Assembly (NCBI GenBank): GCA_017962285.1
Contig: JAGCVR010000167.1
Coordinates: 1-13,891 of the forward strand
From: Muribaculaceae bacterium
GTDB lineage: Bacteria > Bacteroidota > Bacteroidia > Bacteroidales > Muribaculaceae
Length of the DNA: 13,891 bases
Direction: 5' to 3'
The notes under the pieces were generated by a model. It ran no database searches. It had not been told where the DNA came from and saw nothing but the letters and a program-made list of their open reading frames with translations. Of the stretch, positions 7,590 through 13,712 are shown piece after piece; the stretch's first letter is position 1; the number at the start of each line of letters is the position of its first letter. The position numbers and the translations under genes were made by a program.

Positions 7590-8963
7590 ATGGAAATAGA
7601 CCCTGACCCTTTATCTTGCGTTTTATCACTAATCTCTGCAGTGTCTCCGGCTGCAACCACATCCTGGATTGAATTCTCCGCACCAACGTTTGGAAGCATC
7701 ATCGCTATTTTAATCGCCCTGCTCGGGCTGGCACTGTCGTCGTTTTTCTCGGGCTCGGAAATCGCCTATTTCTCGCTCCGACCCACCGACCTGGAACAAA
7801 TCGACGATGACGAAGCGCGCGAACGCGTTTCGACGCTGCTGGAAAAGCCCGAACGACTCCTCGCAACTATACTTATCGGAAACAACATCGTGAATGTGAT
7901 GGTGGTTATCCTGCTCAACTTTGCCCTGAGCCAGATGCTTACCTTCACCAGTCAGGTGGTAAACTTTGTGGTGCAGACTGTAATCCTTACTTTCCTGATA
8001 CTGCTTTTTGGCGAGGTTCTGCCAAAACTTTATGCCAACAACAATAATCTGAAGTTTGCCACCATAGCATCATCGGGGCTGTTGGCAGCCACGCATCTGC
8101 TGTCGCCACTGTCGCGGCTTATGGTGAAAAGCACGCGCATAGTGGACAAGGTGGTCACCACCCATGCCGACTCTCTCTCGGTCGAGGACCTTTCCCGCGC
8201 CCTCGAGGTGAGCAACGTGAAGAGTGCCGAAGAAAAAGACATCCTCGAAGGCATTCTCACATTCGGCGACAAGACGGTGAACGAGATAATGAAGCCGCGC
8301 GTGGACGTGGTGGCGCTCGACATAGAATCCACCTTCAGCGACGTGCTGCGCAGTGTGGTGGAAAACGGCTATTCGCGCATGCCCGTCTATGAAGAGAACC
8401 TTGACAACATCAAGGGGATTCTCTATGCCAAGGACCTGCTGCCTTTCATCGGCAAGCGGAACGACGCCTTCCAGTGGCAGAAACTGCTTCGCGAAGCCTA
8501 TTTCGTGCCAGAGTCGCGCATGATCGACGACCTCCTCGAGGACTACCGCACAAAGAAAATCCACATGGCGGTGGTGGTGGATGAATTCGGATGCACGCAG
8601 GGCATTGCCACCCTCGAGGATGTGCTTGAGGAAATCGTTGGCGACATCGACGACGAATACGATGACGAGGAAAAACCATACACACAAATCGACCCCGACA
8701 CCTTTATCTTCGACGGAAAGACCAGTCTTGGCGATTTCTGCCGCATTACCGACCTCGAAGATGAGATTTTCGACGATGACATCGCCGACGAAGCCGAGAC
8801 TATTGCCGGACTTCTGCTCAACATAAAGGGCGACTTCCTCAAGCAGAAGGAAGCCATCGTTTACAAGAATCTGAATTTCGTGGTTCTCAAAGTGGTGAAG
8901 TACCGCATCGCCAAAGTACGTGTTCACATAAACAGAGAAAACCAAGAGTCAAAGCAAGACTGA
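7590..8963 (+). CDS. gldE: GldE-like CNNM/CBS/CorC-HlyC membrane protein
   Basis: The 457-residue protein has the layout of the CNNM/CorC (HlyC/UPF0053) family. A DUF21/CNNM transmembrane region (about 37-200) includes 'SSFFSGSEIAYFSLRPTDLE' and 'LLFGEVLPKLYA'. A CBS-domain pair (about 233-352) includes 'VNEIMKPRVDVVALD', 'YSRMPVYEENLDNIKGILYA' and 'VVVDEFGCTQGIATLEDVLE'. An acidic linker and a CorC/HlyC domain (about 365-450) follow. Relatives are linked to divalent-cation (Mg2+/Co2+) transport. In Bacteroidetes this form is called GldE, first linked to gliding in Flavobacterium, but it is kept in non-gliding Bacteroidales where its role is unclear. No other gliding gene is visible here. The ATG at 7590 sits 29 bp after a strong promoter; the polar first 30 residues are longer than strictly needed, so a later start is possible. 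The stop overlaps the next start (TGATG). Confidence 0.88.
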   Translation: MEIDPDPLSCVLSLISAVSPAATTSWIEFSAPTFGSIIAILIALLGLALSSFFSGSEIAYFSLRPTDLEQIDDDEARERVSTLLEKPERLLATILIGNNIVNVMVVILLNFALSQMLTFTSQVVNFVVQTVILTFLILLFGEVLPKLYANNNNLKFATIASSGLLAATHLLSPLSRLMVKSTRIVDKVVTTHADSLSVEDLSRALEVSNVKSAEEKDILEGILTFGDKTVNEIMKPRVDVVALDIESTFSDVLRSVVENGYSRMPVYEENLDNIKGILYAKDLLPFIGKRNDAFQWQKLLREAYFVPESRMIDDLLEDYRTKKIHMAVVVDEFGCTQGIATLEDVLEEIVGDIDDEYDDEEKPYTQIDPDTFIFDGKTSLGDFCRITDLEDEIFDDDIADEAETIAGLLLNIKGDFLKQKEAIVYKNLNFVVLKVVKYRIAKVRVHINRENQESKQD

Positions 8964-9574
8964 TGCCTTTTACCGGAAGCCGCACATATTCAGGCAACAT
9001 AACGGTGTACTGCTGGGACATGACCGAAGACAGCCGGCAGTTGCAGCAGATGTGCCGCAGTCTGGGACTGGACTGGCAATGCGACGCCAAAGCCGAAAGC
9101 CGCCGCCGCGAGATCTTCGCGGAACGGTTGCTGCTGAAAGAAATTTTCGGCAACGACGCCTCCCTGATGCACAACGATGACCTGGCTCCGTTTCTCCGCA
9201 GAATAAAACAGAAAATCAGCATTGCCCATGCCCGGGGCAGACTGTGTGTGGCGGTGGGCAACGCCACTCAGTGCTTCGGCATCGACATTGAGACGCACCG
9301 TCCCCGCGTACTCAACGTGCGCGACGGATTTCTCAACGATGACGAGAAACGGTGGATCGAAGCCTCCGACAGTCTCTCGCACATGATAGCCTGGACCGCC
9401 AAAGAAGCCGTCTTCAAGGCCATCAGCGAGCGTAGCCTCATCAAAGAGTACCGGAACCAAATCGTCCTCAGCGAGTTCTCTTTGCCCGCCACGGATGAAT
9501 TCACGCTGACACACCGCTCCCGTTTCATCCCGAAAGACGAAAAGCCTCAAAGGGAATTCACACTGATTTCCTAA
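8963..9574 (+). CDS. 4'-phosphopantetheinyl transferase superfamily protein
   Basis: Enzymes of this family move 4'-phosphopantetheine from CoA to a serine of acyl or peptidyl carrier proteins. The 203-residue product resembles the Sfp/AcpT type. Visible motifs are 'ISIAHARGRLCVAVG' (about 85-99), the metal-binding 'GIDIE' with D108 and E110, 'FLNDDEKRWI' with E128, and 'AWTAKEAVFKAI' with the conserved W-x-x-K-E-A (W144-A149). All expected catalytic residues are present. The start ATG overlaps the gldE stop by one base, so translation is probably coupled; this gldE-PPTase pairing is familiar from Bacteroidetes genomes. It shares the CoA pathway with coaD, though they are in separate operons. 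The target carrier protein is not in the window; it could be fatty-acid ACP or a secondary-metabolite carrier. Confidence 0.9.
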   Translation: MPFTGSRTYSGNITVYCWDMTEDSRQLQQMCRSLGLDWQCDAKAESRRREIFAERLLLKEIFGNDASLMHNDDLAPFLRRIKQKISIAHARGRLCVAVGNATQCFGIDIETHRPRVLNVRDGFLNDDEKRWIEASDSLSHMIAWTAKEAVFKAISERSLIKEYRNQIVLSEFSLPATDEFTLTHRSRFIPKDEKPQREFTLIS

Positions 9575-9605
9575 ATCAACCCCCACTACATCTTCACAAT
9601 TGCCA

Positions 9606-9999
9606 CCTGCGGAATCTCGGAGAGATTCGCGTAGCAGGAACCCTATGTTGTGTCGCTTTCAGCGACCTACATGGGGATTGCAGTGGACTCCGCCATAAGT
9701 GCGTCGAAGACGAACTTCCCCACCAGCGTTCCGTGGACGTTTTCCACAGTTCTGTCACCCCTTCAGGGTTTCACACGACTGGCGACCTCGTCACGGGGGG
9801 TACGCTGCGCTCACCCCCGCCTGTGGTCTGCCAGGGCTTCGCCCTTCGCCAGCCTCCGGCGATGCACCATCGCACTATCGGCTTTTGACAAGTCGGAGAC
9901 TTGGAAATGTGCTTAACACATTGTGCGTGCCAATTCGAAGATTTGGCGCGCACTGTGTGACAGTAGGCTAATCTACTCAGGGCACTTCGAAGATGTGCC
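9606..9999 (+). ncRNA. Hairpin-packed non-coding region, candidate structured RNA or palindromic repeat cluster
   Basis: The 495 bp between the convergent PPTase and dipeptidase genes (9575-10069) hold no credible gene but many exact inverted repeats. They are: CCTGC/GCAGG enclosing GAATCTC-GGA-GAGATTC (9606-9638); GTCGCT-TTC-AGCGAC (9652-9666) inside a longer stem 9641-9676; AGGGC-TTC-GCCCT (9833-9845); GCGATG-CAC-CATCGC (9859-9873); CAAGTC-GGA-GACTTG (9889-9903); AATGTG-N5-CACATT (9906-9922); an 11-bp stem at 9923-9953; AGTAG-N6-CTACT (9962-9977); and GGCAC-N9-GTGCC (9981-9999). T-G pairs at 9644/9673 and 9928/9948 favour a plus-strand RNA. None ends in a T-run, so they are not ordinary terminators. 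Similar short hairpins can also be dispersed intergenic repeats; copy number would decide. Strand and boundaries are inferred. Confidence 0.5.
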
Positions 10000-10033
10000 G
10001 TAGTGGTCGTAGCATTCTCAGGACTCAGGCGCT

Positions 10034-10068
10034 ATCCCGCACACCCCTCTCAGTTATCGCTACGGGAT
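10034..10068. repeat. Inverted repeat just past the dipeptidase stop
   Basis: ATCCCG (10034-10039) pairs with CGGGAT (10063-10068), enclosing 23 bases. It lies within 36 bp of the dipeptidase stop (10070-10072, minus strand), so it could cap that transcript. The loop is long and no T-run follows, so an intrinsic terminator is not supported. A second pairing, CCGTAG (9998-10003) with CTACGG (10060-10065), competes with it. Confidence 0.3.
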
Positions 10069-10069
10069 G

Positions 10070-11749
10070 TTATTTCTCGGATTCCACCACGCGCAGGCGG
10101 TCGCCGCTGCCTGCCACCACGGTGTTGTAGTAGTCTTGCGTGTAGCCGGGCCACTTGGGAGACACAGGCAGGCCGTCAGGATTGCGCTCGAACTGTCCGT
10201 CTTTCTCCTTCTTCACGTTGCCGTCCATATACTTCACAAACAGGTATTTGGCAAGGTCCTGATAGCGAGCGGTGGCTTGCTGGGCGGTATTCACGCTGTA
10301 GTTGGTGAGATATTCCACAGCGCTTGCGGGATTCTCCTTAAGCAAGGCATTTGCAGCCACCTCCACAATGGGCTGGTTTTTCTCGAACTTGTCCTCGAGT
10401 TCCGTCTGCACGCGGCGCACATCGTCAATCATCACCGAATAACGGCTGTAAACGAAGTTCGAAATCACGTTGTTCACCCAGAAGGCGGCATCGAAATTGA
10501 ACGTATAGAGGTCGGCCTTACCACGCGCGTAGCTGTCGGGTACCTCACGGGAACAGCAATATATTGGCACGAAAAGCGCGGTGTTTGCATCATCCACGCC
10601 AAACCAGCTCACACCGCCAATTGCATCGGGCAGCCAATGGCGCATCGGGTTCACGAACACGAAACCCGTCTGCTGCGTGGCTATGGCACGCTCCATGCAG
10701 TAAGTCACGCTGTCAACCTTGAACTCCATCGGGCGCCAGCGATATGGAACGCCCCAGTAGTTGGTGGCTCCCGGGTCCTTGGTCATGTCGAACGGAGTAT
10801 CCTCGAAATGGTCGCGCATCATGTTCTGAACGTCACGAACGCTCACCTTGCGGTCGGGGCGCACCCACACGGGCATCACCTCGGCGCCTTTCTTGCCGTT
10901 GATAAATGGCAGGTAGCGGTCCATGCCGGAGGCGAACTTGTTGAAATATGCCCACACGCGCGCATCACATCCGCGCAGGGTACCGAAGTCGGCGGGAGAA
11001 TACACGCGTGAGAACTCAAAATCAGCATCCTTGCCGCTGTAGAGCCCCATCTTGCGCGCAAACGAAATCACATCCTTTGAGTAAAGGCAGTTTTCCTTGT
11101 CCTTCAGCGGGAACTTGTAGATACGCGCCTGGTTGGCATGACCGGCTATACAGTCGTCGGGCACGCGCATCGCCACCAACACGGCCCCTTTTTCCTTGCC
11201 TGCCTTGCCTATCATGTCCATGATCCACACCTCGTTGGGGTCGCCTATCGAGAACGATTCGCCCTCGCTGTTATAACCATACTTCTCCACCAGGTCGGTC
11301 ATCACGGCGATTGCCTCGCGCGCAGTGCGGGCACGCTGAAGAGCCACATAGATGAGACTTCCGTAGTCCATTATGGCTTTGCCGGTGGTGTCCATCAGTT
11401 CCAGTCGGCCGCCCCATGTGCTCTCGGCAATGGTGAGCTGGTGCTCATTGATGTTACCTATCACCTGATAAGTGTGTGGCACTTCGGGAATATAGCCGTG
11501 CAGCTTGCCGCTGTCCCAGTCGCGTATTTCACGCATCTCGCCGGGCTTGTGGTCGGCAGCGGGCAGAAACTGCATATCGCCGTAGAGCGTATGTGAGTCG
11601 GCGGCATAGGAAATAATCGTACTGCCGTCGGCACTTGCGCCTTTGCCCACAATCAGGTTGGTACACGCGTCACTGTTCACGCTTGCAATGGTAGCCACTA
11701 AAATGGCTGCCATCAATTTCATCGTTCTCATATTTATTTTCATTTTCAT
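10070..11749 (-). CDS. Secreted C69-family dipeptidase
   Basis: Family C69 enzymes are N-terminal-nucleophile cysteine peptidases that cleave dipeptides. The 559-residue protein has a signal peptide (about 1-28, 'MRTMKLMAAILVATIASVNS') and then 'ACTNLIVGKGASADGSTIIS', in which Cys29 is the expected nucleophile, freed by cleavage. Further family segments are 'WGGRLELMDTTGKAIMDYGS', 'GDPNEVWIMDMIGKAGKEKG', 'RVYSPADFGTLRGCDARVWA' and 'GGVSWFGVDDANTALFVPIY'. The signal peptide suggests a periplasmic or surface role in peptide scavenging, in keeping with an asaccharolytic or mixed-feeding gut Bacteroidales. Four Met codons lie in the first 10 residues; the first (11749) is taken here, but the true start could be any of them without changing the signal peptide. 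It has its own good promoter upstream and faces the hairpin-rich spacer at its 3' end. Confidence 0.92.
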   Translation of the reverse strand: MKMKINMRTMKLMAAILVATIASVNSDACTNLIVGKGASADGSTIISYAADSHTLYGDMQFLPAADHKPGEMREIRDWDSGKLHGYIPEVPHTYQVIGNINEHQLTIAESTWGGRLELMDTTGKAIMDYGSLIYVALQRARTAREAIAVMTDLVEKYGYNSEGESFSIGDPNEVWIMDMIGKAGKEKGAVLVAMRVPDDCIAGHANQARIYKFPLKDKENCLYSKDVISFARKMGLYSGKDADFEFSRVYSPADFGTLRGCDARVWAYFNKFASGMDRYLPFINGKKGAEVMPVWVRPDRKVSVRDVQNMMRDHFEDTPFDMTKDPGATNYWGVPYRWRPMEFKVDSVTYCMERAIATQQTGFVFVNPMRHWLPDAIGGVSWFGVDDANTALFVPIYCCSREVPDSYARGKADLYTFNFDAAFWVNNVISNFVYSRYSVMIDDVRRVQTELEDKFEKNQPIVEVAANALLKENPASAVEYLTNYSVNTAQQATARYQDLAKYLFVKYMDGNVKKEKDGQFERNPDGLPVSPKWPGYTQDYYNTVVAGSGDRLRVVESEK

Positions 11750-11777
11750 TGATTAATATCTCTGTGTGTTGGAGTTA

Positions 11778-11808
11778 CAAATTTACGAAAAGAATGTCAA
11801 TTCCCAAA
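11778..11808 (-). promoter_or_regulatory. Predicted promoter of the C69 dipeptidase
   Basis: On the minus strand, TTTG (11808-11805), 19 bp, TAAATTTG (11785-11778) matches the Bacteroidetes consensus exactly. The ATG at 11749 lies 28 bp downstream of the -7 box. The promoter fills most of the 85-bp gap after the beta-helix gene, so the dipeptidase is probably transcribed separately from it. Confidence 0.65.
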
Positions 11809-11834
11809 CCTTATATCCAAACGAATAATCGACT

Positions 11835-13712
11835 TCACTTTGTCAACGCCTGAACCGACGCTATCTGCGAACTGTATCCCACAACCTGCAGGCGCACATT
11901 ACCGGGCAGGTATCTGGAATTGAGAGGAATCTCCACTCTGCGCAAATCCTCCTTCGATGCCACTTTCTGCGCGTTGCCTGTCTGAGTGTGCGTGACATTT
12001 CCATCGGCATCCACATATTCAGCCTTCACCTGCACCGTGCTGCCCACAGCAGCGCCACAATAGAACTCCATCACGAGGCGTTTCACGTTACGGGACAATT
12101 TCACACCATTCTCACTCAATATACTCTTGTTGTATTGACTGGTCACTACATCCTTTTCGCCCACTCTCGACGGGATGCCGTTATATCCATAATTCTTCAC
12201 GAAATATGGATTATTAAGGGCAACAAGTTCATTGTTCTCGTACTTGACATCATCCTTCAGCGAAACATCCACACCCTTTGCCTGCAAATTCAGATACAAG
12301 GGCGAATCGCCACTGTTCAACGGAATCACATTCGTGCCGATTTGCCGCTCCACGGAAAGACTCTGAGTCCCCTTGGCATATCCACCCTCAACATAGGCGA
12401 ATCTCGACTTTCCTCCATTATAGAGGCAACTCACACTAAGGTTCGTATAGTTCTGGAAGCCGGAGCCATAACGCGCGAGTTCCCGGATTTTGACTTCATT
12501 ATCGCGGTCGTATTTATTGCTCCACGTCGCATTGTTGTTACTCAAAATGAGATTATTGACAAGCAGTGTCCCATAGCCATTCAAGTCAAAACAGGGCACA
12601 CGGCTCATGCTGAGGACATCCGACGGCTCTTCATTGAAAAGCTGTTCGGTCTTACCCACTGCCTTTGTCCACATCGCACTCTGCTCAAAGAAGAAATTGT
12701 TAACCACCAATTCAGCCATGGACGAGCCACGATAGGTTTTAATGAGAGGTCCCACTACCGCCTCAAACATTATCCTGTCTATAACCGTGGCGGAGATTGA
12801 CGCGCTTGTCCCGTTAATCACCTGAATTATGGGCAGGTCGCTGCGTCCTTCGTTGTGGTACATGATAATGTCCCTGAAATAGCACTCGTAAATATACCCA
12901 AGGGTAAGCAACGGGATATCAGCGAGCAGCCCTCCGGAAATGCCGAAATGCCCTATTTCCACACGATCCAGTATCAACGCGGAACGGGGATAGTCCACTT
13001 TCACATTCGGGTCGTAGTTGTTCGTCAAATCCACCCTTTTCAGACCCATGAACGAATCGAGTCTCTTTTGAAAAGCATCTTCCTCAAGCCAACGAAAAGC
13101 GATGTTGTCAATCTTTATGTTGTAACCGCGTTCCACCGCGCCTTTCACAGACTGGCCGAAACAATCCTTTCCGCCGCCCACCTTGATAATGTAACGTTGC
13201 GTGTTTTCCTTAGGATAAAACTCTGTGGTAAATCCAAGCCCATAGGACTCTTCCCCGATAATTGCGAAATGGTCCTTTTTCTCATTGCACACATGCAGTT
13301 CCGAGAGATAAAACTTTCCCCGCGGGAAAATCATGGGTTTATTGAGCGGCATGAGGTATTTCTCAATAATCGGAGTACAGTCAATGCTGCGGTTATCTGG
13401 TTCTATGCCGAACCAACGCACATCCACATAGTCATTCTTGATATCACCACGAATGGATAATCCCTTGAAACACCGATATGGTCCATTCTCCAAAAGGATA
13501 TTGTTCACTTTAATCACACCATTGTTCAATGACCCGCCATCGAACCTGAGCACACAATCTTTCAACCCTGACAAATCCAGCACACCGCCCTTGAGGTCAA
13601 AGTCGTTGCGAACCTCGTAAATGGTCTGGTTCTGCGTCATTTGTGTATTAAGTGCTGCTTGTGGATTAAGCACAAGATGCGTCATCATCAATATTAATGA
13701 GAGAATCTTCAT
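11835..13712 (-). CDS. Large secreted protein, probable right-handed beta-helix
   Basis: The 625-residue product starts with a signal peptide (about 1-20, 'KILSLILMMTHLVLNPQA'). The N-terminal segment 'YEVRNDFDLKGGVLDLSG' through 'FDGGSLNNGVIKVNN' (about 32-72) resembles a module common in Bacteroidetes beta-helix proteins and phage tail proteins. The middle has irregular hydrophobic repeats with many Asn and Gly ('LILDRVEIGHFGISGG', 'LVVNNFFFEQSAMW', 'TLLVNNLILSNNNATW'), as in pectate-lyase-like parallel beta-helices. The last 90 or so residues look like a separate beta-domain ('LVMEFYCGAAVGSTVQVKAE'). No catalytic signature is recognisable; glycan binding or cleavage is possible but unproven. 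Sampled lines are clearly richer in A+T than parE, hinting at different ancestry. The upstream gap to the next gene is 29 bp with no convincing promoter, so it may be co-transcribed with that gene. The ORF is certain; the fold is inference. Confidence 0.75.
   Translation of the reverse strand: MKILSLILMMTHLVLNPQAALNTQMTQNQTIYEVRNDFDLKGGVLDLSGLKDCVLRFDGGSLNNGVIKVNNILLENGPYRCFKGLSIRGDIKNDYVDVRWFGIEPDNRSIDCTPIIEKYLMPLNKPMIFPRGKFYLSELHVCNEKKDHFAIIGEESYGLGFTTEFYPKENTQRYIIKVGGGKDCFGQSVKGAVERGYNIKIDNIAFRWLEEDAFQKRLDSFMGLKRVDLTNNYDPNVKVDYPRSALILDRVEIGHFGISGGLLADIPLLTLGYIYECYFRDIIMYHNEGRSDLPIIQVINGTSASISATVIDRIMFEAVVGPLIKTYRGSSMAELVVNNFFFEQSAMWTKAVGKTEQLFNEEPSDVLSMSRVPCFDLNGYGTLLVNNLILSNNNATWSNKYDRDNEVKIRELARYGSGFQNYTNLSVSCLYNGGKSRFAYVEGGYAKGTQSLSVERQIGTNVIPLNSGDSPLYLNLQAKGVDVSLKDDVKYENNELVALNNPYFVKNYGYNGIPSRVGEKDVVTSQYNKSILSENGVKLSRNVKRLVMEFYCGAAVGSTVQVKAEYVDADGNVTHTQTGNAQKVASKEDLRRVEIPLNSRYLPGNVRLQVVGYSSQIASVQALTK

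Follow-up and report, generated by a model that had tools for sequence, protein, structure and literature searches.

What occupies the spacer between the 4′-phosphopantetheinyl transferase (PPTase) gene and the convergent peptidase C69 gene of a Muribaculaceae genome, and why is it so crowded with hairpins? The window analysed here is the whole contig on which the spacer lies (C87; 13,891 nt), part of a 1.48 Mb assembly that is 61% complete. A first-pass annotation had described small hairpins throughout positions 9606-9999 and had offered two explanations: a structured RNA on the gldE-PPTase strand, or a cluster of mobile palindromic repeats. All of the hairpins described are present, including those with 3-nt loops of GGA (9612-9628 and 9889-9903), TTC (9652-9666 and 9833-9845) and CAC (9859-9873); to these five we add a sixth, with a GTG loop, at 9952-9964. 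The longer stems at 9641-9676 and 9923-9953 fold as described, with one T-G pair apiece, the gaps of 2, 0, 8 and 3 nt between hairpins in 9889-9999 hold, and no T-run follows the hairpins. Shuffled sequence had been named as the yardstick that could overturn the observation, and none of 1000 dinucleotide shuffles reached the real hairpin density. Positions 9606-9999 contain 6 perfect hairpins with a stem of at least 5 bp and a 3-nt loop (shuffle mean 0.40, maximum 5) and 16 when loops of 3-8 nt are allowed and nested hairpins are counted (shuffle mean 2.39, maximum 10), whereas other 394-nt stretches of the window hold at most 4 hairpins of the 3-nt-loop kind (mean 0.45).

A count of copies with positions 9575-10069 as the query returned 20 further partial matches in the window's own genome, which cluster mainly in four blocks: A and D (Table 1), B (9750-9868) and C (9889-10007). 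Nearly all listed own-genome copies (22 of 24) lie outside any ORF of at least 120 aa, the exceptions being two 22-nt matches to D. Family-C copies often form inward-facing pairs 0-21 nt apart, both in this genome (L015, L017) and in relatives (L088, L089, L090, L094); the pair at L093 faces outward. The repeats are dispersed and fall into families, and we conclude that the spacer is composed, as a mosaic, of scattered repeats with several hairpins each, and is not one RNA. Repeat 1 is probably itself a mosaic of blocks A and D, because the close own-genome copy of block A lacks the D hairpin. The middle block is reversed: its TTC loop reads GAA on the minus strand, and an A-C opposition in its 9757-9769 stem on the plus strand is a T-G pair on the minus strand. 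The homologous core of repeat 2 spans 9750-9868, its outer end not being fixed, and in repeat 3 the outer stem of the central hairpin competes with the hairpin at 9906-9922.

Table 1. Repeats and blocks of the spacer, in window coordinates. Own-genome copy numbers of repeats 2 and 3 come from models of own copies and include the window's copy.
Feature	Position	Strand	Description and support
Repeat 1	9609-9718	+	Own-genome copies; clade-D flank model; fold better on +
Repeat 1 parts			5′ mini-hairpin 9612-9628 (GGA loop); central stem 9641-9676; 3′ hairpin 9697-9717 (GAA loop)
Block A	9609-9677	+	One close own-genome copy, without the 3′ hairpin of D
Block D	9697-9718	+	End of the clade-D repeat
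Repeat 2 (family B)	9750-9873	-	About ten own-genome copies; clade-B flank model; L178 flank matches
Repeat 2 hairpins		-	9859-9873; 9833-9845 (GAA loop on -); central 9794-9819; 9757-9769
Repeat 3 (family C)	9887-10010	+	Clade-C flank model; about ten own-genome copies; covariation
Repeat 3 hairpins			9889-9903 (GGA loop); 9906-9922; central 9923-9953; 9962-9977; 3′ 9981-9999 (GAA loop); then GTAGTGGT

Three B copies of the own genome, at L009, L011 and L016, follow a hairpin resembling the 3′ one of family C and then GTGGT, so that B and C parts recur together in a changed order. Own-genome copies also lie near or at the ends of contigs C15, C55, C99, C107 and C176 of this assembly (G000), as if the repeats had broken the assembly, and two ORFs of 88-90 aa that overlie the repeats (9650-9971) look spurious and repeat-made. 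Elsewhere in the window, a short tandem repeat of period 9/27 lies at 594-648 beside a TetR-like gene, and a 625-aa protein (11835-13712) is without a Pfam match at E 0.001; a PADLOC search gave no match to this protein or to anything else.

A Y1_Tnp search of the window's own 61%-complete assembly found no Y1 transposase gene, and the cognate gene may lie in the missing part of the assembly or may have been lost. Cognate enzymes were therefore taken from relatives, with Y1_Tnp matches occurring in 36 of 41 genomes. The same-genus set comprises all 43 matches of at least 47.8 bits, weaker ones being left out, and the set from other families comprises 20 of the 25 matches above 45 bits; three same-genus loci and one from the other families had flanks too short for testing. 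Every one of the 43 same-genus transposases carries the motif Y[IV]..Q..HH, the HuH motif being present too, and most are 145-161 aa long, the few outliers reflecting the choice of start codon or the end of a contig.

Comparison of upstream with downstream flanks revealed inverted, hairpin-rich repeats around most of the 43 same-genus genes. When significance was judged by per-locus dinucleotide shuffles (at most 4 of 900 null scores reaching the real score), flanking inverted repeats were significant at 35 of the 40 testable same-genus genes with the motif, at 12 of 13 genes with the motif in the order's other families, and at none of six Y1 genes without the motif, one of which (L202) was borderline with 5 of 900 null scores. 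The motif-bearing genes without significant flanks were L049, L053, L060, L064 and L082 in the same-genus set and L200; L053 and L060 each have one C-type copy despite the failed test. At 7 of the 40 genes the flanks match in direct orientation too. In three relatives (G001, G008 and G014), a Y1 gene is bracketed by family-C copies that face it. With 20 own-genome partial matches, several families, and inward-facing copies beside relatives' transposase genes, the suggestion of a cluster of mobile palindromic repeats is supported.

The arrangement recurs among named records found with a clade-C protein, where BLAST, run without a shuffle control, found flanking inverted repeats at 16 of 19 loci, 5 of the 19 appearing to duplicate loci already in the genome set. 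These records are named Bacteroidales; 18 of the 19 are titled as MAGs, several with rumen or cecum in the title, and the other is Parabacteroides sp. PH5-46, whose genome has four more repeat matches beyond the two flanking ones. Beyond Bacteroidales, the motif is present in two plasmid proteins of Cytophagales. Inverted repeats flank the gene in Persicobacter (48.3 bits; null maximum 24.0 over 60 shuffles) but not in Bernardetia (19.7 bits; null maximum 34.0).

One explanation for these data is that the repeats are what is left of ordinary IS200/IS605 elements (subclass 1.1), or short derivatives of them. The NCBIfam IS200/IS605 model is indeed the best match to the transposases, scoring above its cut-off for one of four proteins and below it for three, and the two systems share a related Y1 enzyme and hairpins recognised on single-stranded DNA. 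However, the Y[IV]..Q..HH motif is universal in the same-genus set, and the inverted-repeat flanks that accompany it are absent both from the six motif-less Y1 genes and from two IS200-type plasmid controls. Moreover, IS200/IS605 ends are subterminal hairpins of a whole mobile IS, whereas here we find inverted arrays and gene-less copies. We therefore consider an IS200/IS605 origin unlikely.

The pairing of repeat and enzyme is specific to transposase clades, which we drew by hand from a tree of the 43 proteins in which some branches have support under 95. Among 72 flank repeats from 36 loci, many of them homologous and so not independent, a similarity of at least 35 bits between loci was seen for 143 of 284 pairs within a clade and for 1 of 2236 pairs between clades. 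Each transposase clade is thus paired with a repeat of its own, and repeat families track the clade of the enzyme. Ten flank models were built from transposase flanks alone, with the window excluded, and three of them match the window at E ≤ 0.01, in every case with the top match in the spacer: the clade-C model at 9887-10004 (+; E 5.3e-23), the clade-D model at 9695-9718 (+; E 1.9e-4) and the clade-B model at 9822-9753 (-; E 1.1e-3). The other seven gave no window match at that threshold.

On E-values taken alone, the window's presumed links to clades B and D are weak, and because of this the B link was tested in reverse, with the own-genome B model searched against transposase flanks. This model matches both flanks of the transposase gene at L178 (G057:C52), in inverted orientation (E 3.5e-8 and 1.4e-4), and a single flank at L179. 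A scan of 74 kb of own-genome stretches, window included, with the flank models found full clade-D repeats at L019 and L026 (E 4.9e-30 and 7e-28), clade-B repeats at L023 and L024, and one repeat each of clades E and F (E 3.3e-9 and 4.9e-9). Taken together, the matches to clades B-F indicate that this one genome bears repeats of at least five transposase clades.

A clade-D repeat of G014 has 25 matches in G014 itself (self counted), of which 16 form 8 inward-facing pairs by our count from the listing; it has 17 matches in G005, 9 in G024, 3 in G016 and 2 in G011. It has no match in G018, where the three tree-placed transposases belong to other clades. The pairing does not hold in all genomes: G003 and G005 hold family-C copies, and none of their tree-placed transposases is of clade C; G005 is listed as 100% complete, and the clade-C enzyme may have been lost. 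Clade-C enzymes are present in G006, G009 and G021, where their own repeats are too distant from the window's for BLAST.

To what form of nucleic acid does the folding belong? We aligned 28 family-C copies (27 distinct), consisting of 23 of the 38 family-C matches and 5 copies from named records. In the three-helix structure of this family, 93.6% of cells are paired and 14 of 32 pairs have changed on both sides; the covariation score is 0.298, compared with 0.109 for shuffled alignments and at most 0.082 for slid structures, although the scored structure was drawn by hand from the window's fold, which favours the unslid one. The structure is conserved, and its strands are asymmetric: wobble pairs are one-sided, with G-T in 95 cells versus A-C in 12, or 68 versus 12 once a single invariant T-G pair (27 of 27) is removed. 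Read toward the gene, the 72 flank repeats contain 80 hairpins with a stem of at least 5 bp and a 3-nt loop (shuffle mean 9.1), and 48 of these 80 loops are GNA (40 of them C-GNA-G) versus 3 of the complement TNC, with GNA loops averaging 0.58 in shuffles (maximum 3). Such loops occur in 9 of 10 clade groups, and GNA loops on G-C pairs are described as unusually stable DNA mini-hairpins (PMC4686876). Folded as DNA, blocks 1 and 3 are clearly more stable than shuffles, and more so on the plus than on the minus strand; for block 2 the minus strand is slightly favoured, and the fold lies weakly below shuffles (z -1.8 on +, -2.0 on -). The GNA loops, the G-T bias and the strand-specific folds favour single-stranded DNA.

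These results bear directly on whether the spacer encodes a structured noncoding RNA in the PPTase direction, its hairpins being selected as RNA. The first-pass annotation had read the T-G pairs as the mark of a plus-strand RNA; the strand assignment stands for two blocks, both of which also fold below shuffles as RNA, but the GNA loops and the HUH transposase point to folded single-stranded DNA. The compensatory changes found in family C fit RNA and single-stranded DNA equally. Against an RNA, the spacer contains three unrelated families, one of them reversed, the dispersed copies adjoin different genes, GNA is not a typical RNA loop, and an Rfam scan of both strands of the window gave no match above the gathering score. 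Nor did the repeats turn up at other PPTase loci. A search for PPTase in 61 genomes in order to find the orthologous spacer gave 30 loci for examination, one being the window itself, and five repeat models had no match at E 0.01 in the other 29. It is very improbable that the hairpins were selected as a structured RNA in the PPTase direction, though the repeats may have some additional role as RNA.

The same loci show that gene order has changed at this site. PPTase and C69 are co-directional in all five relatives' loci that show gldE, PPTase and C69; in four relatives (L170-L173) these three genes run in one direction and the repeat cluster is absent between them. In the window (8963-11749), C69 is inverted relative to the relatives' order, and the repeat cluster lies at the new junction; on the other side of C69, reading of 11750-11834 found no such repeat. 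The coincidence of repeat cluster and gene-order break is a correlation only.

The position of the window's copies between convergent genes, and the roles that REPs elsewhere are thought to play (PMC3733652), might suggest host-selected terminators or mRNA stabilisers spread by their use, with transposase flanks as just one location, but no T-run follows the hairpins and host use leaves unexplained why repeat family tracks transposase clade, so we give this idea little credence.

We conclude that the repeats are very probably non-autonomous, single-stranded DNA hairpin elements of subclass 1.2 transposases and that several families of them have landed in the spacer. Each repeat, as single-stranded DNA, would fold into an array of small hairpins: mini-hairpins on its 5′ and 3′ sides and, between them, a larger central stem, often with another inside it, the loops being mostly GNA. 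A single-domain HUH-tyrosine transposase (TnpA_Y1) of subclass 1.2, encoded between two inward-facing repeat copies, would be its cognate enzyme; a PDB sequence search with the clade-C transposase as query gave no match. We infer binding, cleavage and movement by this enzyme, which most likely binds the folded strand, cuts it and rejoins it, and single copies and inward-facing pairs would thereby be scattered between genes, in the way supposed for REPs and TnpA_REP. The comparisons made here revealed no insertion polymorphism. TnpA_REP is described as processing folded single-stranded DNA strand-specifically (PMC8266576).

How does this proposal compare with known systems? In the TnpA_Y1 survey of Quentin et al. 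(2018, PMC6006769), subclass 1.2 is tabulated as proteins of ∼148 aa with [DN]H[IV]H and Y---Q--HH, from Bacteroidetes and Cyanobacteria, with REP marked 'no', and is described as generally without IS200-type ends. The relatives' transposases share this length, HuH motif, signature and Bacteroidetes host; in contrast to the published 'no', most genes examined here have cognate inverted hairpin-array repeats and dispersed copies. We read the flanking repeats as a correction to the published table and not as a ground for excluding these enzymes from the subclass. The survey's automatic REP search, as described there, accepts a hairpin when a GT[AG]G tag lies on its 5′ side. By that rule, applied to short hairpins only, 1 of 43 loci has a tagged hairpin within 1000 nt and the spacer has none, which may explain how the repeats of subclass 1.2 were missed.

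Like REP/REPIN-RAYT systems (REPtrons), the repeats are dispersed intergenic palindromes that form inverted pairs, flank an HUH-Y1 gene and pair with it clade by clade. Unlike those of REPtrons, they are longer (∼90-190 bp), have several hairpins and lack the canonical GT[AG]G tag, and the REP_Tyr_transpos model scores 19.5-23.1 bits in three of four proteins, with the fourth unlisted, against a cut-off of 80. The nearest precedent is the TIRtrons, in which Y1 genes (TIRYTs) likewise lie between long inverted repeats (Di Nocera et al. 2013, PMC3733652), some of these being dispersed as pairs or clusters according to the same account. In the survey's classification, 20 of 26 TIRYTs belong to subclass 2.1 and the others to 2.2 and 2.5, with none assigned to 1.2 (PMC6006769). 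Among the matches listed in a search of the open-access literature on REP/RAYT in Bacteroidetes, Prevotella, Bacteroides and Muribaculaceae, none links repeats to subclass 1.2. Mobile palindromic repeats are known; what is new, within the literature searched, is cognate multi-hairpin repeats for a subclass recorded without any.

A broader reading, on which we are evenly divided, is that subclass 1.2 and its repeats constitute a further system of hairpin-guided single-stranded DNA mobility, widespread among Bacteroidota, beside IS200/IS605 and RAYT-REP. Recognition in such a system would be through arrays of hyperstable C-GNA-G mini-hairpins with strand-marking wobble pairs, with no GTAG-tagged single palindrome; enzyme and repeat would co-diverge by clade; and repeats would pile up in inward-facing pairs and in mosaics, as at the break in gene order in the window. 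The superfamily survey, in the part cited here, left subclass 1.2 without a substrate (PMC6006769). If the repeats are that substrate, defined pairs of enzyme and DNA, including one from Parabacteroides sp. PH5-46, make the function of subclass 1.2 directly testable. If true, the proposal would also explain the intergenic hairpin clusters of Bacteroidales, along with spurious short ORFs and contig ends, and would provide a natural case of hyperstable GNA DNA hairpins apparently under selection.
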